From positions 62,001-126,000 of the forward strand of contig JAJYWN010000075.1 of assembly GCA_021791495.1 (NCBI GenBank): 64,000 nt of DNA. The letters are read 5' to 3'. Source of the stretch: Bacillota bacterium (GTDB lineage: Bacteria; Bacillota; Sulfobacillia; JAJYWN01). Position numbers and translations under genes: made by a program. The notes beneath the pieces were generated by a model. That model did no database searches, had not been told where the DNA came from, and was given only the letters and a program-made list of their open reading frames with translations. This document shows, in pieces, positions 4,544 to 17,358 of the stretch (position 1 is the first letter of the stretch; each line of letters opens with the position of its first letter).

Positions 4544-6328
4544 GTGAACTCCGTTGTGGTGTTTGTGCTCGCAGCCGCCGTTGCTCTGATCGGGTATTAC
4601 GTCTACGCAAAATACGTTGACGAGAAGATCATTGCCGCCGACCCCAAGAAGGCAACCCCAGCGAAGATGTACATGGACGGGGTCGATTTCATGCCCACGG
4701 GGAGGCACGTCCTTTTCGGGTACCAGTTCAAGTCCATCGCCGCCCTGGGCCCGGTCACGGGGCCGATCATCGCCCTCCAGTGGGGATGGGTACCGGCCTT
4801 CATCTGGATCCTCGCCGGGGTCTTCCTCATCGGCTGGGTCCAGGACTACGTCAGCGCCGTGGTCGGGCTGCGGAACGACGGGCAAAGCTTCGGCGCCCTG
4901 TCCTATAAGATGATCTCGCCCCGCGGCCGCCTCACACTTCTGGGTTTCATCTACTTCTACCTCATCCTCATCATCGCGGCGTTCAGTGACATGGTGGCCT
5001 CGATGATGGCCAAGATCCCTCAAGTGCCTTTCTCCATCCTTGCCTTGATGGCGGTAGGCATGCTCGCCGGCTGGATGATTTACAAGAAGCGCATCGACAT
5101 CATCGTGACGACCGCGGTCATGGTGGCCCTGGCGCTGGTCGCCATCGGACTGGGTGGGGTGATCCCCATCGCCGCCACCAAGCTGGTATGGGTTGTGTTC
5201 GCCCTGGTCTTTAGCTACCTAGGAGCCGTGCTCCCGATCTGGAGTTACACCCAGCCCATCAACTACATTTCCTTCTATCTGGTATTCATCGGGATGATCG
5301 GTGCGGTGCTGGGAATCCTGGTCGGGCACCCGAACCTGAGCGCTCCGGCTTTCACCACCTACACCATCCCCGCCGGGCCGCTGTGGCCCATCCTTTTCGT
5401 CACAATCGCGTGCGGCGCCATCTCGGGGTGGCACAGCCTGGTGTCCAGCTCCGAAACGGCGCGGCAGCTTGAGAACGAGAAGGACGCGAAGTACGTCGCC
5501 GGCGGCAGCATGTTCCTGGAGGCCGTGTTGGCCACCATCGCCCTAATCATCGCGGCGGGAGCCTTCTCCACCTTCGACGCCTATAAGACGGCGCTGAAGG
5601 GTGGCCCCGCCACGGTCTTCGCCCAGGGCATGAGTTCGCTCTTAGGTTACCTGGGTATTCCGTCCGAGTTCGGAACGGTCTTCGCCGGGGCGATGTTCGT
5701 CATCCTGGCCATCACCGTGATGCAATTGGTGGCCCGCTTTGCCCGTATCGCCACCGCCGAACTGGCCGGCGACGCCGTACCGACCCTGCGTAACCCGCAC
5801 GTGGGCACCATCATCACCCTGCTCATCGTCTTCGTCCTGGTGTACACGAACACGTACACCTACATCTGGACCTTGTTCGGCGGCTCCAACCAGCTCATGG
5901 CGGCCCTGGCCCTGCTCATTGCCTCCATCTGGCTGGCCTCGCTGAAGAAGCCGCACGGGTGGACCTTCTATCCCATGATCTTCATGCTGGTGACCACCAT
6001 CGGCGCGCTCTTGGTCACCATCCGGACCCTCATCCTGAACATCGGCAAGCTGCAGGCCGGGACCATGAAGCCGGCCACGGGACAGAGCGTGGGCCTGGCC
6101 GTGGGCGGAAACGGGGTGGCGGCGGCCATCGCCGTGTTCCTCGTCATCGCCGCGATAGTGCTGGCCTACGACGGTCTGTCGACCTACTTCAGGGTGAAAG
6201 CCGGCGCCGCGCTGGGCGGCGGACCGGTGGCCAAGACCACTCCTCCCCCGGCGACCGCGCCACCGGCGGCGCCATCCGGCGATGGTGACGCCGACGGCGA
6301 CGGCGGCTCGGGCGAGGGTGGGTTCTAG
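4544..6328 (+). CDS. cstA: Carbon starvation protein CstA family transporter
   Basis: Polytopic inner-membrane protein of 594 residues with about 15 hydrophobic segments and the CstA motifs near the N-terminus (FGYQFKSIAALGPVTGPI) and in the middle (ACGAISGWHSLVSS). Family members are induced by carbon starvation in enterobacteria and import peptides or pyruvate. The start is GTG 4544, chosen because AAGGAGG lies at 4531-4537. The last 40 residues are a Pro/Ala then Gly/Asp-rich tail unlike the rest and probably disordered. A strong intrinsic terminator follows, so this gene is probably a separate unit from the ATPase genes downstream even though they lie together. Confidence 0.93.
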   Translation: MNSVVVFVLAAAVALIGYYVYAKYVDEKIIAADPKKATPAKMYMDGVDFMPTGRHVLFGYQFKSIAALGPVTGPIIALQWGWVPAFIWILAGVFLIGWVQDYVSAVVGLRNDGQSFGALSYKMISPRGRLTLLGFIYFYLILIIAAFSDMVASMMAKIPQVPFSILALMAVGMLAGWMIYKKRIDIIVTTAVMVALALVAIGLGGVIPIAATKLVWVVFALVFSYLGAVLPIWSYTQPINYISFYLVFIGMIGAVLGILVGHPNLSAPAFTTYTIPAGPLWPILFVTIACGAISGWHSLVSSSETARQLENEKDAKYVAGGSMFLEAVLATIALIIAAGAFSTFDAYKTALKGGPATVFAQGMSSLLGYLGIPSEFGTVFAGAMFVILAITVMQLVARFARIATAELAGDAVPTLRNPHVGTIITLLIVFVLVYTNTYTYIWTLFGGSNQLMAALALLIASIWLASLKKPHGWTFYPMIFMLVTTIGALLVTIRTLILNIGKLQAGTMKPATGQSVGLAVGGNGVAAAIAVFLVIAAIVLAYDGLSTYFRVKAGAALGGGPVAKTTPPPATAPPAAPSGDGDADGDGGSGEGGF

Positions 6329-6483: not shown

Positions 6484-6891
6484 GTGCCTTTCTGGAAGAA
6501 GCGGGACCAGCGACCTCAGAAACCTAGTCCAGCCGAGAAAGCGGCGCCCCCGGCTGCCGCGCCGGCAGTCTCGCCAATGACCGGCTCTCCGACCGCTGCC
6601 TCTCCTCCGACGGCCACGCCCGCGGACGGACCGGAGGAAAAGCAGAAGGTGGGCAGCGTCGTGCGGGAGTTCCTCTACGGCATGGCCGCTCACGATATGA
6701 CCCGCTATGCCCTAAAGACCAGGTCCAGCATGGAGCACCTGTTCATCCTCATCACCATGGGCGACCTCCTGGGCGTCCCCATTCTGCCGCCATACTACTC
6801 CTTGCGCCTCATGCCCTACGTCGTCCCGCAGATCTCCACCTGGAAACGCCGCATGCTCCGTGAGAAGGACCTGACCGACGCCCTATTCTAG
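6484..6891 (+). CDS. Small conserved protein of the ArsA-like ATPase cluster
   Basis: A 135-residue protein of unknown function. The first 55 residues are Pro/Ala/Thr-rich and probably disordered. The C-terminal 80 residues are compact and look conserved: a helical stretch GMAAHDMTRYALKTR, then a moderately hydrophobic stretch ending PPYYSLRLMPYVVPQ and a basic helix WKRRMLREKDL. It starts with GTG 6484 behind AGGAGG at about 6470. It lies 25 bases before the first of two ArsA-like ATPases and is probably co-transcribed with them, which makes it a candidate partner or client of that ATPase pair. No catalytic motif is visible. Confidence 0.75.
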   Translation: MPFWKKRDQRPQKPSPAEKAAPPAAAPAVSPMTGSPTAASPPTATPADGPEEKQKVGSVVREFLYGMAAHDMTRYALKTRSSMEHLFILITMGDLLGVPILPPYYSLRLMPYVVPQISTWKRRMLREKDLTDALF

Positions 6892-6916
6892 GGGAGAGGG
6901 GAGTGCAGAGCGAGCT

Positions 6917-7987
6917 ATGTCCTTAGCGGACTTTTTCAAGGCCAACCCGGACGTCCGTTACATCATGTACGGCGGCAAGGGCGGACTGGGGAAGACCACT
7001 TTCTCCGCGGCCACGGGATACTACCTGGCCAGCCAGGGCTACAAGGTGCTGGTGTTCTCGGTGGACCCGCAGGCCTCACTGTCCGACATCTTCGAGCGGA
7101 ACATCTTCGGGCAGGGTGAGGTGGAGATCGCCCCAAACCTGTATGCCTGTGAGATCGACGCGGACAAGCGTATCAAGGCTTATCAGGAAGAGGTACGCGC
7201 GCGCATCCGCGACATGTATGGCATGGAGCAGATCCCCGAGGAGATCGAGAACTACATCCAGGCCGCCTCGGCCGAGCCGGCCATGGAGGAGAGCGCCATC
7301 TTCGACGAGGTGGTAAATATCGTCGTCAAAGGCGGCTACGACTACTACATCTACGACCTGGTCCCCTTGGGCCACGCCCTTTACTACCTGTCCATGGCCT
7401 CCGTCTATGACGCCTGGATCGACCGCATCACGGGGCTGAGGGAGCAGATGCGGGAATACGACAAGGTCGTGGCCACGGTAAGGCGACAGAAGTCAACGGA
7501 AGAGGACCAGATACTGAACGAGTTACTTTACATAAAAGAGCGCATCAACAAGTCTTCCGGCATCCTGACGGACTCCAAGCAGACGTCCTTCTTCTTCGTC
7601 CTGACCCCCGAGGAAATGATTATCCTGGACACCACCAAAGCGGCGGAGCTTTTCGCCAAGTTCTCCGTCCCCATCCGCGGGTACATCGTGAACCGGGTCA
7701 TCCCACGGCGGCTACTAGAGGACAACATCCCGGAGTACCTGCGGAACCGCATCGGGATGCAGGCCGGGCATTTGGAGACCATCGAGAAGCAGTTCGGCGA
7801 GCGGGTGCTGGCGCGGGTGCCGGAATTCGATTCGGATATCCGCGGGATGAAGAACATCGCCCGCGTGGCGGAGGCGCTCTTCGGGAACGGCGCTGGGCCG
7901 GTGCGCCAGGCCCCGGCCGTGGTAGCCGGTGGCGGCGCGGACGACGGGGACACGGGCGACGGCAGTGCCGAGGGGGGTGACCGTTGA
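6917..7987 (+). CDS. ArsA/Get3-like P-loop ATPase, subunit 1
   Basis: SIMIBI-class P-loop ATPase of the ArsA/TRC40 family. The deviant Walker A is GGKGGLGKT (residues 19-27) with the signature lysine K21. Switch I is SVDPQASLSD with the catalytic-type Asp50. Switch II is DLVPLGH (147-153) instead of the family DTAPTGH: the Gly-His is kept and the Thr-Ala is lost. A charged helical region around 165-200 and a Gly/Asp-rich tail complete the protein. Homologs drive arsenite export, tail-anchored protein insertion or metallocofactor assembly. There is no arsB or arsR nearby, so arsenite export is unlikely. The stop overlaps the start of the next ATPase gene by one base. Confidence 0.85.
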   Translation: MSLADFFKANPDVRYIMYGGKGGLGKTTFSAATGYYLASQGYKVLVFSVDPQASLSDIFERNIFGQGEVEIAPNLYACEIDADKRIKAYQEEVRARIRDMYGMEQIPEEIENYIQAASAEPAMEESAIFDEVVNIVVKGGYDYYIYDLVPLGHALYYLSMASVYDAWIDRITGLREQMREYDKVVATVRRQKSTEEDQILNELLYIKERINKSSGILTDSKQTSFFFVLTPEEMIILDTTKAAELFAKFSVPIRGYIVNRVIPRRLLEDNIPEYLRNRIGMQAGHLETIEKQFGERVLARVPEFDSDIRGMKNIARVAEALFGNGAGPVRQAPAVVAGGGADDGDTGDGSAEGGDR

Positions 7988-9015
7988 TGGCTGAGACCAT
8001 GAAGGACTTCCTGGCCTCCCATAGCGGGTTGCGTTATTCCTTCTTTGGCGGCAAGGGCGGCGTGGGCAAGACGGTCATGGCCGGAGCCATGGCCCTTCAC
8101 TTGGCCCAGTCGGGGCGGCGGACGCTCCTGGCCTCCACCAACCCGGTCCACAGCCTTTCCAGCCTGCTGGACCAGAACGTCTTCGGTGCCGAGACGCCGG
8201 TGAACGGGGCGCCGAACCTCTGGGCCTACGAGATCGACACCACCGACACCATCGAGCGGTCGAAGAAGGAGATCGCCGAGAAGATCCGGTGGTTCCTGAA
8301 GTTCGCCGACATACCCACGCAGGCCGACGCCTTCGTCGAAACGGCCACCATGAACCCGGCCTTCGAGGAGTCGGCCATGTTCGAGAACATGATCAACCTG
8401 ATGTTCGAGAACAAGTATGACGCCTACGTCTTCGACACCGCCCCGACGGCGAACGCCCGGCGCCTCCTGGGCATGTCGAAGGTTTACTCCCTCTGGGTCA
8501 ATAAGATGCTGGAGAGCCGCAAGGAAGCGCAGGTGATGCGCCTTTCCCTGTCCTTCCGAAAGAAGGAGGAGAAGGACCCTCTCCTTGACTATCTTCTCTC
8601 TTTCCAGGAACGGATGGGCCACGCGCGCGAGCTGCTGACGGATGCGGAGAAGACGGCCTTCTTCTTCGTCACCTTACCTGAGGCACTGCCCATCGCCGTG
8701 GTGCGGCGCTTCATCGGCTGGTTCAAGGATTTCGGCATCCCAGTGGGCGGGGTTATCGTGAACGGCGTGATCAAACTGGATGGTGGGGCCAGCAGCCAGG
8801 GCAGCGCGGCCGGCAGTTCGGGCGCGGCCGAGGCCAAGAAAAGCCGCCAGGGCGCCGTCGCGGACTTCGTCTTGAACCGGGTCGAGATGCAGAAAGCCTA
8901 CATGCAGCAGATCTATGACACCTTTAGTGACGTCAGGGCCATCGTCCCCCTCTTCGAGACTGAGGTACGCGGCACCGCGGCTCTGGGTCGTGTCGTTGGG
9001 GGTCTGTTCTCTTAG
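7987..9015 (+). CDS. ArsA/Get3-like P-loop ATPase, subunit 2
   Basis: Second ArsA-family ATPase, clearly related to subunit 1 but diverged. Walker A is GGKGGVGKT (21-29). Switch I reads STNPVHSL with Asn52 where the family has the catalytic Asp. Switch II keeps DTAPT (150-154) but continues A-N instead of G-H. It is therefore complementary to subunit 1, which keeps Asp50 and Gly-His. A Gly/Ser/Ala-rich insert lies near residue 270. ATG 7987 is preferred to the TTG just before it because it overlaps the previous stop as TGATG. ArsA-like ATPases act as dimers or pseudo-dimers, so an obligate heterodimer with one competent site is a reasonable inference. Confidence 0.85.
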   Translation: MAETMKDFLASHSGLRYSFFGGKGGVGKTVMAGAMALHLAQSGRRTLLASTNPVHSLSSLLDQNVFGAETPVNGAPNLWAYEIDTTDTIERSKKEIAEKIRWFLKFADIPTQADAFVETATMNPAFEESAMFENMINLMFENKYDAYVFDTAPTANARRLLGMSKVYSLWVNKMLESRKEAQVMRLSLSFRKKEEKDPLLDYLLSFQERMGHARELLTDAEKTAFFFVTLPEALPIAVVRRFIGWFKDFGIPVGGVIVNGVIKLDGGASSQGSAAGSSGAAEAKKSRQGAVADFVLNRVEMQKAYMQQIYDTFSDVRAIVPLFETEVRGTAALGRVVGGLFS

Positions 9016-9053: not shown

Positions 9054-9080
9054 GGGGGGCGGCAGATCGCCCCCCTTGTT
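9054..9080 (+). terminator. Intrinsic terminator after the ATPase pair
   Basis: An 8-bp perfect stem GGGGGGCG / CGCCCCCC with a 6-nt loop, followed by TTGTTCTCTT. It lies 38 bases after the stop of the second ATPase gene and separates it from the CofE-like gene. Confidence 0.75.
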
Positions 9081-9253
9081 CTCTTCCCGGGGAATCACCC
9101 TGTGGCGACTTCGACACCTCATTGGGCTTCCTCGCGCATAGAGAAGAGCGGGGGGTTCGCGGGCGCCAGTCTGGCCGATGAAGCGGAACCTTCTCAGAAG
9201 CGGAACCGTCCTGTCGCCATATGACTAGGCCAAGACATCTACGAGAGGGAGCG

Positions 9254-9991
9254 ATGAACCAAGAGGTTTATGATCGATTAGCCAAAACAGCAGCCCTTTT
9301 CAACCCCGGGGAGGTTATCCTTGAAAGCCCGATTGTCGTGAACCGACGGGTCTGGAAACGTTTCATCATCAAGACCCACATCATTCAGATGGGCGAGGAT
9401 CTCGTGGGAGTCGTGCGTCGCTACGCTTCCCCGCACATACGACTAGGTGACATCGTTTTCGTCGGGCACAAGGCTACCGCCATTGCCCAGGGGCGCTACG
9501 TGCATGCGAGCCAGGTCAGGCCCAGGTGGCTGGCACGTTTCCTCGCTGCCCGCATCCGGCGGCGGGCTTTCGGCTACGGCTTGTCCAAACCAACCACCAT
9601 GGAAGTGGCCATCCGCGAGATCGGTGTTCCCATGATTCTGGTAGCCTGTGCCGCGCACCTAGTCGGGCGGGCCTTGGGGCGCCACGGGGATTTCTACAGG
9701 GTGGCGGGCGTCCGCGTCTCCTCGATCGACGGTACCACTACGTGGGCCCAACCTCCCTACAATGAGTACATCGTGCTGGCCCCCAAAGACCCCGATAAGC
9801 TGGCCCAGCGCATCGCCGACCGGTTGGGGGCGCGTGCCGCCATCGTCGACCTCAACGACGCCGGTGCGGAAATCCTTGGCGCCTCCAAAGGGGTGGACCG
9901 CCGCCATCTCCGCCAGCTATTGGCCGACAATCCGTTGGGCCAGGGGGCCTTCAGTGCGCCCCTGGGAATCGTCCGGCGCGCGAGAGCCTAA
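9254..9991 (+). CDS. CofE-like protein (F420-0:gamma-glutamyl ligase family)
   Basis: A protein of 245 residues resembling the CofE/FbiB-type ligase fold. Indicators are a GDIVFVGHKATAIAQGR stretch in the first third, a Gly-rich middle with a substrate-loop-like IDGTT, and a C-terminal SKGVDRRHLRQLLADNPLGQG segment characteristic of the family. Authentic CofE adds glutamates to coenzyme F420. Short stand-alone relatives occur in many bacteria without F420, and their substrate is unknown. The start is ATG 9254, chosen for GAGAGGGA just upstream; an in-frame ATG at 9221 has no such site. It follows the ArsA-like cluster after a terminator and is convergent with the lipoprotein gene beyond. Confidence 0.72.
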   Translation: MNQEVYDRLAKTAALFNPGEVILESPIVVNRRVWKRFIIKTHIIQMGEDLVGVVRRYASPHIRLGDIVFVGHKATAIAQGRYVHASQVRPRWLARFLAARIRRRAFGYGLSKPTTMEVAIREIGVPMILVACAAHLVGRALGRHGDFYRVAGVRVSSIDGTTTWAQPPYNEYIVLAPKDPDKLAQRIADRLGARAAIVDLNDAGAEILGASKGVDRRHLRQLLADNPLGQGAFSAPLGIVRRARA

Positions 9992-11292: not shown

Positions 11293-12174
11293 ATGGAACC
11301 AGTTAGAATGGCTCAGGAACGCCTCCCGGAGCTCACGGACTCCCTAATCATCCAGGGTGATGCAAGAGTCGCGCTACGTAAGCTTCCTGACCAGTCCATT
11401 CAGTGCTGTGTCACGTCTCCTCCCTATTGGAGTCTCCGGGACTACGACATGCCGGGGCAGATCGGTCTTGAACCTTCGGTCTACCAGTTCATTAACCGGT
11501 TGATCGAGGTCTTCGCCGAGGTGAGGAGAGTCCTAAGGGACGACGGCGTCCTGTGGTTGAACATCGGCGACGCCTATACCAGTGGGGATCGTGGATACAG
11601 AGCTCCGGACAAGAAGAACCCGGTGAGGGCCATGTCTTATCGGCCAGAGACACCGGAAGGACTCAAGCCCAAGGATCTGATTGGGATTCCCTGGCGGTTA
11701 GCTTTGGCCCTACAACAAGACGGCTGGTATCTGCGTTCTGACGTTATTTGGGAAAAGCCGAACTGCATGCCAGAAAGTATGAAAGACCGGCCCACACGTG
11801 CGCATGAGTATCTGTTCTTACTGACAAAATCTGAACGGTACTATTATGACTACAGGGCGGTAAAAGAACGCGGCAGGAACAGACGTACGGTTTGGTCGAT
11901 CAATACACAGCCTTTCAACGGGGCCCATTTTGCCACTTTTCCACCGGCTCTGGTTGATCCTTGCATAAGAGCCGGATCAAGGGTGGGGGATTTTGTCTTG
12001 GACCCGTTCCTTGGCTCCGGAACGGTTGGGCTGGTCTGCAACCAATTGGACCGCAAGTACGTTGGAATCGAGCTTAACCCGGAATACGTGAAGATGGCGG
12101 ACAAACGCCTGAACGAGATCGGAAAACAGCCTCAACTAATGCTGGTGAGCGGCGGTGACGATGGTGAGTCTTAG
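11293..12174 (+). CDS. Type II DNA methyltransferase, N4-cytosine type (XmaI-like system)
   Basis: A 293-residue adenosylmethionine-dependent DNA methyltransferase of the beta order: catalytic motif IV TSPPYWS (Ser42-Pro-Pro-Tyr45) comes first and the AdoMet-binding motif I LDPFLGSG (from residue 236) near the C-terminus. The SPPY form is typical of N4-cytosine methylases. The endonuclease encoded directly downstream resembles XmaI/XcyI/Cfr9I, which cut CCCGGG and are paired with N4-cytosine methylases, so the two fit as one system. The start is ATG 11293 after GGAGGG. The end overlaps the endonuclease gene by 14 bases. The specificity is inferred, not shown. Confidence 0.88.
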   Translation: MEPVRMAQERLPELTDSLIIQGDARVALRKLPDQSIQCCVTSPPYWSLRDYDMPGQIGLEPSVYQFINRLIEVFAEVRRVLRDDGVLWLNIGDAYTSGDRGYRAPDKKNPVRAMSYRPETPEGLKPKDLIGIPWRLALALQQDGWYLRSDVIWEKPNCMPESMKDRPTRAHEYLFLLTKSERYYYDYRAVKERGRNRRTVWSINTQPFNGAHFATFPPALVDPCIRAGSRVGDFVLDPFLGSGTVGLVCNQLDRKYVGIELNPEYVKMADKRLNEIGKQPQLMLVSGGDDGES

Positions 12175-13132
12175 ACTACCCGAGCCGGACCTACAGATCG
12201 CCTTTTCCAGTCGCCTGCTTCAGGCAAGGCAGGAGTTTCTGCAGGAGGCCCTGTTGAGGACCCTATCGGACATGGACGTGAAGACTCTTGATGCGGAGGT
12301 GCATCAATACGTGCCTTCCGATGGCCTTCGCGTCATGGTGGGGCATGGACTTCGGGCAGAAATGGTCTTTGCGTTGCCCTCGGTGCTGAAGAGGAACCCG
12401 CGCCTCATCGCCTATTATCGGCTCGTGCTGGGATTTTCCCGGAAAGAGATCTATTCCAGGTCTCCGGGGATGAGCGAGTTTCAGCAGTCTGAGGACCACG
12501 GAACACTTTCCGCCCGTCAGGAGGCGGCTCTTCCACACCTTTGCGTCGAGATCAACCGAGTCGCCAGCATGCTGGTTCAGGCTATAGCCCCGAAGGTAAC
12601 TGCCCAACTTCTCGATGACCTCTCTCTTCTGACATACGGCCCCCAGCTTCGCGGAGGGCGGAACGTGTCACTCGGCACGGACGCGACAGGCCAGGTATTT
12701 GAGGTTATCCGCAAGCTCATTGGCTCCCACGCTCTAGAGGTGACAGAGAAGCACATCATCTTTGCGGACTCCACGGGTCGAACGGTCGAGGTACGTTTCA
12801 GCAACGACCCCGACATCGCGGTCGCAAGCGTCAAAGGTGATTCCAGGTCGCCTATGCTGGCCATCGAGATCAAGGGTGGGACCGACCTGTCCAACATCCA
12901 CAACCGCCTTGGAGAAGCCGAGAAGAGCCACCTCAAGGCAAAGGAACGCGGCTTCAACGAGCTCTGGACGGTGCTCAACGTACGAGGGCTCTCCGAGGAA
13001 GCACTTCGACGGGGTTCGCCCACAACTACCAGGTTCATCGATCTGGCGGACATCGTCACCGGCGAGGGACCAGCGCACGAGGCATTTAAGGAACTCCTTC
13101 TCGAGAAGCTTAGGCTCCCGGAGAGCGGCTAG
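12161..13132 (+). CDS. Type II restriction endonuclease, XcyI/XmaI family
   Basis: A protein of 323 residues. The N-terminus SLRLPEPDLQIAFS and the central LLTYGPQLRGG match what I recall of the XmaI/XcyI/Cfr9I family, whose members recognise CCCGGG. A PD-(D/E)xK nuclease core is visible: Pro-Asp218, then E236-I-K238 followed by GG. Starts GTG 12155, ATG 12161 and GTG 12164 are all possible; ATG is chosen because family members begin with SLRLP. It overlaps the methyltransferase gene, which keeps protection and cutting linked. No control (C) protein gene is present. Its 3' end abuts the right copy of a short direct repeat. Confidence 0.85.
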   Translation: MVSLRLPEPDLQIAFSSRLLQARQEFLQEALLRTLSDMDVKTLDAEVHQYVPSDGLRVMVGHGLRAEMVFALPSVLKRNPRLIAYYRLVLGFSRKEIYSRSPGMSEFQQSEDHGTLSARQEAALPHLCVEINRVASMLVQAIAPKVTAQLLDDLSLLTYGPQLRGGRNVSLGTDATGQVFEVIRKLIGSHALEVTEKHIIFADSTGRTVEVRFSNDPDIAVASVKGDSRSPMLAIEIKGGTDLSNIHNRLGEAEKSHLKAKERGFNELWTVLNVRGLSEEALRRGSPTTTRFIDLADIVTGEGPAHEAFKELLLEKLRLPESG

Positions 13133-14785: not shown

Positions 14786-15783
14786 TCCACGGCCAATCTC
14801 TTCTCATAGACGTTCCGGATCACCGAATCGAGGCGGGGAGGTTGGACGTTGAGGTCGGTGATGCCACCCAAGGCCACGAGTCGGGCGACGGCCTCCACGG
14901 CCGCGGCGCGGGGCACCTTGAGCGTCAGCCGGCCGCTCGTGGCGGTAACCGCCTCGTCCACCGGCCCATCGTAGACCGCGCCGCCGGCGGATTGGAGTTC
15001 TGCCAGAAGGGTCTTTCTTGCCGCGGGGCCGCCAAGGTACTGGATGTCGATCACCTTGTGGTCATCCAGTTCCTTGAGGGGGCCGACGGCCCCGTCGTAA
15101 ATGATCCTGCCGCCGTCCAGAATCAGGACCCTCTGGGCCAGGGCTTCGATATCGTTCATGTCGTGGGTGGTGAGAACGATGGTGGTACCTTTGTCACGGT
15201 TCAGTTGGCGGAGGAACTCCCGCACCCTCTCCTTGGCGACCGAGTCCAGCCCGATGGTGGGCTCGTCGAGGAAGAGGACCTCCGGTGTGTGGAGGAGCGA
15301 CGCGGCGATTTCGGCCCGCATGCGCTGTCCCAGGGAGAGCTTGCGGACGGGGATGTGCAGGAGCCCGCCGATATCTAGCATCTCCGAGAACTGCCGGACC
15401 CTCTGATCGAAGGCGGCGCGGTCGATCTCGTAGATATCGGCGTAAAGGCGGAGGGACTCGATCACCGGTATGTCGTACCAGAGCAGCGACCTCTGCCCAA
15501 AGACCAGCCCGATGTGGTAAGTGTACCGGTACCGGTCGCGCTGAGGGTCAAACCCGAGGACGCGGACGTGGCCGGCGGTCGGAGTGAGGATCCCGGTCAA
15601 GACCTTGACCGTGGTGGTCTTTCCAGCGCCGTTAGGGCCGATGAGGCCCAGCACCTGCCCCTTCGGGACGGTGAAGTTAATGGAGTCCAAGGCACGCTTC
15701 TTTACCTTCGGCGGGGCGAAAGCTGGTCTCCGGGGCGGTGCCGGCACAGTGTAGTCCTTGACAAGGTCCCGCACTTCGATCAC
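14782..15783 (-). CDS. ABC-2 type transporter ATP-binding protein
   Basis: ATPase of the exporter. Walker A GPNGAGKTT, Q-loop, signature LSLGQRMRAE and Walker B VLFLDEPTIGLD are followed by TTHDM. A C-terminal domain of about 90 residues is typical of drug-efflux ATPases of the DrrA/NatA group. I place the start at GTG 15783, which overlaps the upstream stop as GTGA and has AAAGGA about nine bases before it; an upstream GTG at 15813 would give a longer product without a good ribosome binding site. The coupling ties its translation to the regulator-acetyltransferase gene. Confidence 0.9.
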   Translation of the reverse strand: MIEVRDLVKDYTVPAPPRRPAFAPPKVKKRALDSINFTVPKGQVLGLIGPNGAGKTTTVKVLTGILTPTAGHVRVLGFDPQRDRYRYTYHIGLVFGQRSLLWYDIPVIESLRLYADIYEIDRAAFDQRVRQFSEMLDIGGLLHIPVRKLSLGQRMRAEIAASLLHTPEVLFLDEPTIGLDSVAKERVREFLRQLNRDKGTTIVLTTHDMNDIEALAQRVLILDGGRIIYDGAVGPLKELDDHKVIDIQYLGGPAARKTLLAELQSAGGAVYDGPVDEAVTATSGRLTLKVPRAAAVEAVARLVALGGITDLNVQPPRLDSVIRNVYEKRLAVE

Positions 15784-17300
15784 TTCTTCAGGTCCTTTCG
15801 ATAACAAACCCACATGCGGTCGACGGTGAACCCGAGGGAGAGGGGGACTCTGTTGCTGGTGCGAGAGAAGGAACTGACCTCGGTGGTCACCGCCTCCATG
15901 CCACGCCCGGCCGCGTAGCGGAGGAGGTATTTCCAGAGATCCGCTTCGACCCAGGTGCCCTCGTGGGCAGGCAAGACGTCAACGTAGATACGCCGGCTCC
16001 CTTTGCTATTCCAGAGGCTGGCCACGGCTTGGCCGTCCAGAAAGGCGGTGAAGAAGGTGTCCATCGGAAAGGAGAGGCCGGCGGCCAGTAGATCCTCGGG
16101 TCGGGGCGGATAAAAGCCTGGCCGGCCGCCCCGCACCTGCTCGGAAAGCTGAAGGGCCAATCGGAGCTGGTCCATGTCGCCTACAGGTCGAATGTCCAGG
16201 CGACCGAAACCGCTCTTGCGTCTCTGCCTACCGGCGTTTTCAGCTACGGCCCCGCTGCTGGGGCCGGTGGTGGGGTCGCTGTTCTGGGCATGACTCTTGA
16301 GGTCGAACGCCAGGTCCCATCCGTAGAATTCAGGTCTGTACCCCGACACCTTCAAAAAGGAAATGGCCTGGTTGGCCTCGGGAGAAAGATAGGCGTCGGC
16401 GAAGGAGGCGCCTCTTTCGAGGGCCATCTGCTCGGCGCGTCGGAGCAGCGCGCGGCCAATGCCCTGTGACCGGTACTCGGGAACGACGTACGGCCCCTCC
16501 AACCGCACCTGCCCGGCCCGAAGGCGCTCCGGCTCGACACCGAGCGCCACGAAACCTAACGTACCCGAGCCGTCAGGCATCTGCCGACGGGCCAATACGA
16601 AGTTCTCGGCCGAGATGTCGTAGCTCTTCTCCACCCATCTGGCGATCCTCTCCGCACCCACCGGTTCTTGAGGCATGCCGGTGAGCTCAGAGCGGTATTC
16701 GGCCATGAGCTTCCCTAAGGTCGCGTAGTCGGACGGTGACAGGCCCGCGTATCGTACCGCCTGAGGAGAGAGGAAAAGGGGAACGGTCACGGTGGCGCCA
16801 CCGGTCGTGGTGGCCTCCACCTTCAGTTCCAAGATGCCCGCGGAATCGGGGCTGATGCCCTGCCTGACCATCTCCGCGGCGAGGGGACCCGCCGCGGCGG
16901 CCCACAAGGCTTTGGAGCGAGCTGGGCCCGTGGGATGAGCCGCCATGCCGTCTGCCTTGCCTTCGCGTTCCAGCCTGGTGGCACGTAGCGCGGCGGCCGC
17001 CTCAAGCTGGACATCCAGCGGCTCCCGCCCGGCGCGACGGGCGACAGCCGCCAGCCGGGAGAGGAATTCACCCACCTGTTCCAAGGTTTGCCCCTCGTCT
17101 TGCTGCTGGAGAACCACCCGCAGCAGGTCCAAGACGCGGGGGTCGTAGTAACCGGACCTCCCGCCGCCCGACCGGTTCCGGACCGTCGGGCGGGGAAGGA
17201 GCCCGCTGTCCACGTACAGCCTCAAGGTGCGCTCGTTAATGGTCAGGCCGACGTTCCTAGCCTGGGAGGCCAATTCCCTCAAGGTCAGCCACGACGTCAC
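15780..17300 (-). CDS. MerR-type regulator fused to two GNAT acetyltransferase-like domains
   Basis: About 506 residues. The N-terminal 75 residues are a MerR winged helix (LTLRELASQ then INERTLRLYVDSGLLPRP and a wing ending YYDPRVLDLLR). After a helical stretch, a GNAT domain shows motif A as YRSQGIGRALL with a following SFLKVSGYRPEFYG strand. A second, more degenerate GNAT-like domain fills the last 150 residues. MerR dimers usually carry a small ligand-binding C-terminus; here an enzyme-like module takes that place and could sense or acetylate the exporter's substrate. GTG 17300 has AAGGGGG upstream; TTG 17330 is the alternative. It leads the exporter operon and probably controls its own palindromic promoter. 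Confidence 0.82.
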   Translation of the reverse strand: MTSWLTLRELASQARNVGLTINERTLRLYVDSGLLPRPTVRNRSGGGRSGYYDPRVLDLLRVVLQQQDEGQTLEQVGEFLSRLAAVARRAGREPLDVQLEAAAALRATRLEREGKADGMAAHPTGPARSKALWAAAAGPLAAEMVRQGISPDSAGILELKVEATTTGGATVTVPLFLSPQAVRYAGLSPSDYATLGKLMAEYRSELTGMPQEPVGAERIARWVEKSYDISAENFVLARRQMPDGSGTLGFVALGVEPERLRAGQVRLEGPYVVPEYRSQGIGRALLRRAEQMALERGASFADAYLSPEANQAISFLKVSGYRPEFYGWDLAFDLKSHAQNSDPTTGPSSGAVAENAGRQRRKSGFGRLDIRPVGDMDQLRLALQLSEQVRGGRPGFYPPRPEDLLAAGLSFPMDTFFTAFLDGQAVASLWNSKGSRRIYVDVLPAHEGTWVEADLWKYLLRYAAGRGMEAVTTEVSSFSRTSNRVPLSLGFTVDRMWVCYRKDLKK

Positions 17301-17358
17301 AGCCGTTTCCCCCTTGGCGTTCCGCTCCAACCAGAACGCGTAAGACGTCCGTGGTATG

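Follow-up and report, generated by a model that had tools for sequence, protein, structure and literature searches.

Two overlapping genes in a 64,000-nucleotide stretch of DNA from a Bacillota bacterium (the window) encode ArsA/Get3-type ATPases that divide one set of active-site motifs between them, and the same division is fixed in the relatives of both genes. We consider the whole to be best explained, with a probability of about 0.55, by an obligate heterodimer of the two subunits, S1 and S2, which works with the transporter CstA, probably through a small CstX-like protein. That CstA, CstX and ArsA homologues occur together has been described before, and so have ArsA pairs in two genomes (Castillo and Saier, 2010; PMC2963123). 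New are the fixed complementary division of the motifs between paired genes and the contrast with a single-gene form. Among the openly licensed PMC papers searched, none describes either, and operons that join CstA to ArsA homologues are treated in PMC2963123 alone.

A motif set divided between two genes

The genes concerned all lie on the plus strand. S1 (6917..7987) has 356 residues and S2 (7987..9015) has 342, counted from the ATG at 7987. The stop codon of S1 (TGA, 7985-7987) and the start codon of S2 (7987-7989) have one base in common, at 7987, the one-base overlap that the original prediction had described. The ArsA/Get3-like identity that it assigned to both proteins is borne out by the profile scores (PF02374, 230 bits for S1 and 205 for S2 against a cut-off of 24.3; TIGR00345, 223 and 209 bits against 135). 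A terminator-like hairpin follows S2 on the plus strand (9054..9075; nine-pair stem with 8 G-C pairs, T-rich tail), which is a consensus match only, as 6 such sites were found in 5 kb against 3.5 expected.

Both P-loops (GGKGGLGKT in S1, GGKGGVGKT in S2) retain two lysines. In S1, the switch I Asp50 (codon 7064..7066, plus strand) lies within SVDPQASLSD, and switch II reads DLVPLGH (7355..7375, plus strand), so that the first Asp of DTAPT and the Gly-His are retained and TAPT has become LVPL. In S2, Asn52 (codon 8140..8142, plus strand), within STNPVHSL, replaces the catalytic Asp, and switch II reads DTAPTAN (8434..8454, plus strand), with DTAPT intact and Ala-Asn for Gly-His. These are the losses that had been predicted for the two subunits. 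The full set, consisting of the switch I Asp and DTAPTGH, is present in neither subunit, and S1 and S2 together have the whole of it. Judging by the motifs, S1 is predicted to have the hydrolytic site, and S2 a site that would hold ATP and not hydrolyze it.

BagA/BagB (Rv3679/Rv3680, 6bs3) are likewise tandem, unequal bacterial Get3-like ATPases, with one joint crystal entry. We rejected an identity with this pair: on the BagA/BagB profiles (NF053622 and NF053621; cut-offs 400 and 521), S1 scores 47 and 34 bits and S2 53 and 38 bits, and eight BagA-like loci have unrelated switch I sequences without a DP motif.

A scan of species genomes gave 444 relatives of S1, and the best 80 of the 444 were analyzed; these come from Bacillota, Chloroflexota, Thermodesulfobacteriota, Acidobacteriota, Gemmatimonadota and others. 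As the scan patterns (EP[AS]M[EY]ESA and [YF][GA]GKGGLGK) touch neither switch I nor switch II, the motif count is not circular. The census took in open reading frames of more than 150 residues and more than 60 bits at 142 loci (80 + 15 + 12 + 10 + 25); some genomes were reached twice, and identical rows were removed. The assignment to S1 or S2 required a difference of 80 bits between profile scores and made no use of the motif columns; a motif-free tree agrees with it. One row classed as a single ATPase (L217) is an S1 cut at the contig end and was counted as S1, and two partial rows (L170) are one single protein. Simple patterns missed the S1 P-loop of L066 and the S2 motif of L127, both at contig ends, and the S2 switch I of L108; in the aligned columns, Asn is present in every S2 of sufficient length.

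The question of whether the substitutions are fixed is answered clearly by the census, in which all 100 distinct S1 proteins have the Asp and GH (100/100) and all 96 distinct S2 proteins the Asn and AN (96/96). Switch II of S1 reads YDLVPLGH (93/100) or FDMPPFGH (7/100), and that of S2 reads FDTAPTAN (89/96) or FDTAAVAN (7/96). Three pairs added later (L227-L229) show no departure from this within the sequence available for them. The original prediction had named subunits that occur alone, and pairs with complete motifs in both members, as evidence that would count against it. Pairs of the latter kind are absent from the census, and wherever a contig extends at least 1.1 kb beyond S1, the gene that follows is S2 (71/71 loci). 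In the phylum of a Chloroflexi locus (L077), S2 was found in 16 of 151 genomes, with S1 adjacent in 16/16. Closer to the window, the pair is present in 15 of 41 surrounding genomes, its own included, and always side by side.

In alignments from these closer relatives, Asp50, Gly152 and His153 are invariant in 14 S1 proteins, and Asn52, Ala155 and Asn156 in 15 S2 proteins, the latter with a mean column identity of 60 percent. Neither alignment has an invariant cysteine. Purifying selection acts on S1 and S2 alike (dN about 0.03-0.09 versus dS about 0.25-0.44, three close pairs each). Together with the fixation of the motifs, this shows that the pattern is not due to chance or decay.

Single-ATPase loci were reached through searches with the small protein in three phylum-level samples, of which 17/299, 10/198 and 22/148 genomes were positive. 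A single ATPase lies beside the small protein at 21 loci, and it has the switch I Asp in every one (21/21). Its switch II is a complete DTAPTGH or DTAPSGH in 14/21, reads DTPPTGL in 4 and DTPPTGQ in 1, and has PTAL for PTGH in 2; neither the S1 nor the S2 pattern occurs among them (0/21). The single form thus retains the catalytic Asp throughout and, in most cases, a complete set of motifs, whereas the two-gene form divides the motifs. CstA was seen near 15 of these loci, and none was seen near the other 6. One subgroup of CstX-linked single ATPases (L201-L206) has lost the switch II His (DTPPTGL or PTAL) and retained the switch I Asp. As this His-less subgroup (6/21) stands alone, a degenerate switch II does not in itself demand a partner.

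In a maximum-likelihood tree of 95 proteins, calculated with the two motif stretches excluded, S1 and S2 each form one clade (100/99). The two clades are sisters (95/87) and contain the identical two subclades, and the single ATPases fall into two groups outside. The exact placement of several single and outgroup branches is unsure, because these branches are long. One old duplication that preceded the spread across phyla explains this tree.

Association with CstA and a CstX-like protein

The original prediction had described the neighborhood as free of arsenical and Get-pathway genes, and none was noticed there, but it had missed cstA directly upstream. Its interpretation as a whole is therefore partly supported, since the predicted heterodimer with one site withstood the observations that could have spoken against it, whereas the context had been read incompletely. 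The cstA gene (4544..6328, plus strand), the first of a conserved cassette, encodes a CstA-family membrane transporter of 594 residues (PF02554, 416 bits). CstA precedes CstX-S1-S2 in 54 of the 59 loci whose upstream sequence reaches 3.5 kb or more, and the remaining 5/59 have none within 2.5 kb upstream. Among 13 genomes without CstA at the locus, 11 have it elsewhere. In two genomes the cassette is split, with CstX-S1-S2 at one site and CstA with a second CstX at another (L090/L236 and L106/L237).

Between cstA and S1, a gene for a small protein of 135 residues (6484..6891, plus strand) has its conserved core at residues 65-133. The original prediction was right to call it a conserved partner, as it is conserved beside S1; in size and position it is CstX-like. 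Castillo and Saier describe CstX as a small single-helix protein between CstA and ArsA (PMC2963123), and the window protein agrees in position, size and its one hydrophobic stretch (residues 83-104; best 19-residue hydropathy 1.59). A low-confidence model (pLDDT 70, pTM 0.32) has one long helix at residues 51-96. Loci with room for the count have one copy (25/59) or two (34/59); as the window genome also has one, we dropped the idea that two CstX are obligate. Seven lone CstX genes (L207-L210, L223-L225) have neither CstA nor an ATPase in view, and a tblastn search of plasmids with the small protein gave no match.

None of 27 members of the small-protein family matched a Pfam family, so that a kinship with YbdD, which we considered, was not found at that sensitivity (0/27). 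The cory-CC-star profile NF041419 is matched by all 27 relatives at E values of 0.01 or lower (best 6e-17), and the window protein scores 34.2 bits against a cut-off of 80. A C-terminal Cys-Cys, which we took as a criterion from the name of the profile, is absent from the window protein, which ends in DALF. At pair loci, CC tails occur in 0 of 150 open reading frames counted; at single-ATPase loci, 13 were counted. Another 12 tails classed as "single, other" stem from loci with incomplete S1 (four; L191, L217) and from true single loci (eight). The Cys-Cys tails, often DWCC, belong to L162-L166, L168 and L169 in the phylum of the window and to L194-L200 in the phylum of L078. The Cys pair of the small protein accompanies the single ATPase with complete motifs.

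Mode of action and alternatives

Yeast Get3 cannot hydrolyze ATP without D57, and the D57N protein is trapped with ATP bound (PMC12506534). As S2 naturally carries a change of this type, we infer one hydrolytic site, in S1, and one ATP-holding site, in S2. We picture S1 and S2 as an obligate heterodimer arranged in the manner of the two fused ArsA halves, in which S1 would hydrolyze ATP. The S2 site, similar to a natural Get3 D57N, would bind ATP and hardly hydrolyze it, and may hold the dimer together or serve as a sensor. We regard a heterodimer with one hydrolytic site as quite probable. A model of the S1-S2 pair of L061, calculated as one chain with the stop codon read as Gly (pLDDT 81, pTM 0.78), aligns with the whole of E. 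coli ArsA (1ii9_A) over 522 residues at 3.3 Å (Z 27.8; Foldseek E 2.7e-27), which places the predicted halves as in ArsA. However, as a single read-through chain was modeled, the arrangement may reflect the learning of the predictor, and such a model of a known fold is weak support for dimerization.

From the gene set, and from the proposal of Castillo and Saier, made on independent data, that ATP energizes CstA via CstX (PMC2963123), CstA is probably the effector of the dimer, with CstX as the probable connection. The dimer would dock on CstA, probably via CstX, and cycling at the sole S1 site would drive or gate the movement of a solute through CstA; this coupling, like the dimerization, the hydrolysis at one site and the docking, is our reading of the evidence. 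The E. coli transporter is driven by the proton gradient without such an ATPase (PMC7730263), and CstA-YbdD is a pyruvate importer (PMC5847655); this importer resembles the cassette in combining CstA with one small protein and differs in having no ATPase. ATP is thus not required by the CstA fold as such, and the role of the ATPase may be to drive CstA, to gate it or to assist in its assembly. That ATP drives or gates CstA has in our estimate an even chance, and we prefer it over a role in assembly, which seems rather unlikely. Pyruvate as the substrate of this CstA would be a guess by analogy.

Work on ArsA and Get3 has nearly always dealt with enzymes whose two ATP sites are equal or almost so. 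In the present pair, a D57N-type exchange has arisen naturally in one of the two subunits and become fixed across Bacillota, Chloroflexota and the other phyla named above, with the single-gene relatives, which retain the catalytic Asp, as a control group. Two questions become testable with small soluble proteins, namely whether an ArsA-type cycle can run on one hydrolytic site, and whether ATPases of this kind energize transporters other than arsenite pumps. We suggest tentatively, and with less confidence than the heterodimer itself, that there is a widespread, so far unrecognized ATP-powered form of CstA, consisting of CstA, a CstX adaptor and a one-sited ArsA/Get3 heterodimer that arose from a single duplication. 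If true, a proton-driven carrier family has been turned into a primary active pump, and an ArsA-type engine needs one hydrolytic site only.

Get3 is a symmetric homodimer with identical sites. Its chaperone function might have been taken over by S1-S2 for the delivery of CstX or CstA segments to the membrane, with the single hydrolytic site timing the release. Get3/TRC40 is the nearest single-chain relative in fold and sequence, with the archaeal Get3 proteins (3ug6, 3zq6) closest among solved structures by sequence; the hydrophobic stretch lies in the C-terminal half of CstX, and the split cassettes leave one CstX with the ATPases, as would be expected of a direct partner. However, 31 residues follow this stretch, unlike in a classical tail anchor, no Get1/Get2-like gene or other Get partner was noticed among the neighbors of the cassette, the CXXC zinc site of Get3 is absent because S1 and S2 have no invariant cysteine, and a chaperone dedicated to a single small protein would be costly. 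We therefore consider delivery to the membrane unlikely, though it is the strongest competitor of the CstA-coupled heterodimer.

According to Castillo and Saier, who reported adjacent ArsA pairs in Pyrobaculum arsenaticum and Symbiobacterium thermophilum, ArsA proteins linked to CstA may be homodimers; their CstA-CstX-ArsA operons share with ours the CstA, the small protein with a single helix and the ArsA homologues of one domain each. They noted that ArsA family members retain the DPA and DTAP motifs in both halves and that in single-domain proteins the switch I Asp is replaceable only by Asn, a finding that they did not link to the pairs (PMC2963123). S1 and S2 could accordingly be an enzyme and a regulator, each mainly a homodimer and adjacent only for co-expression, as the two P-loop lysines would allow each to bind ATP alone. 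Yet they were never found apart, their motif losses are complementary and not random, and their subclades mirror each other in the tree. In place of two pairs read as homodimers, we have a widespread pair with fixed complementary sites, and separate homodimers appear improbable.

Still less can be said for an ArsAB-like pump for arsenite or another oxyanion, split into two genes. E. coli ArsA (1f48, 1ii9, 1ihu) also has two unequal Get3-like halves, and its fold and arrangement are common to the S1-S2 model; moreover, E. coli became more resistant to arsenite when given Acr3 and an ArsA pair encoded by two genes (Fu et al., via PMC2963123). ArsA is, however, one chain with arsenite-binding cysteines and ArsB as partner, whereas S1 and S2 are separate genes without conserved cysteines, score 89 and 93 bits on the ArsA profile (TIGR04291, cut-off 650), and adjoin CstA and not ArsB, ArsP or Acr3. 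Arsenic genes were also absent from the CstA operons of Castillo and Saier (PMC2963123), and such a pump is very improbable. Finally, S2 is almost certainly not a degenerate copy without function of its own, since the loss of its catalytic residue is outweighed by exactly Asn and AN in 96/96 proteins, by its column identity and by a dN well under dS.

Other genes of the window and its genome

The window genome has a further ArsA-like ATPase on contig C22 (L054, L226), with STDAAHSLGD and DAAPTGETLR. It belongs to a different branch, and neither CstX nor CstA was seen adjoining it. Downstream of S2, an F420 ligase-like protein (9221-9991; PF01996, 46 bits) scores 26 bits against 181 on TIGR01916, far under the CofE cut-off; as it has no homologue in the 17 related regions searched (0/17), we set it aside as a part of the system. 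A defense system was rejected as well, since PADLOC gave weak P-loop matches only (23 and 19 bits). At 11293-13132, a gene for a DNA methylase (PF01555) is overlapped by one for an XcyI-type restriction endonuclease (PF09571), forming a compact type II restriction-modification pair. On the minus strand, a single protein of 516 residues (15780-17330) combines a MerR-type regulator domain with a GNAT acetyltransferase domain.
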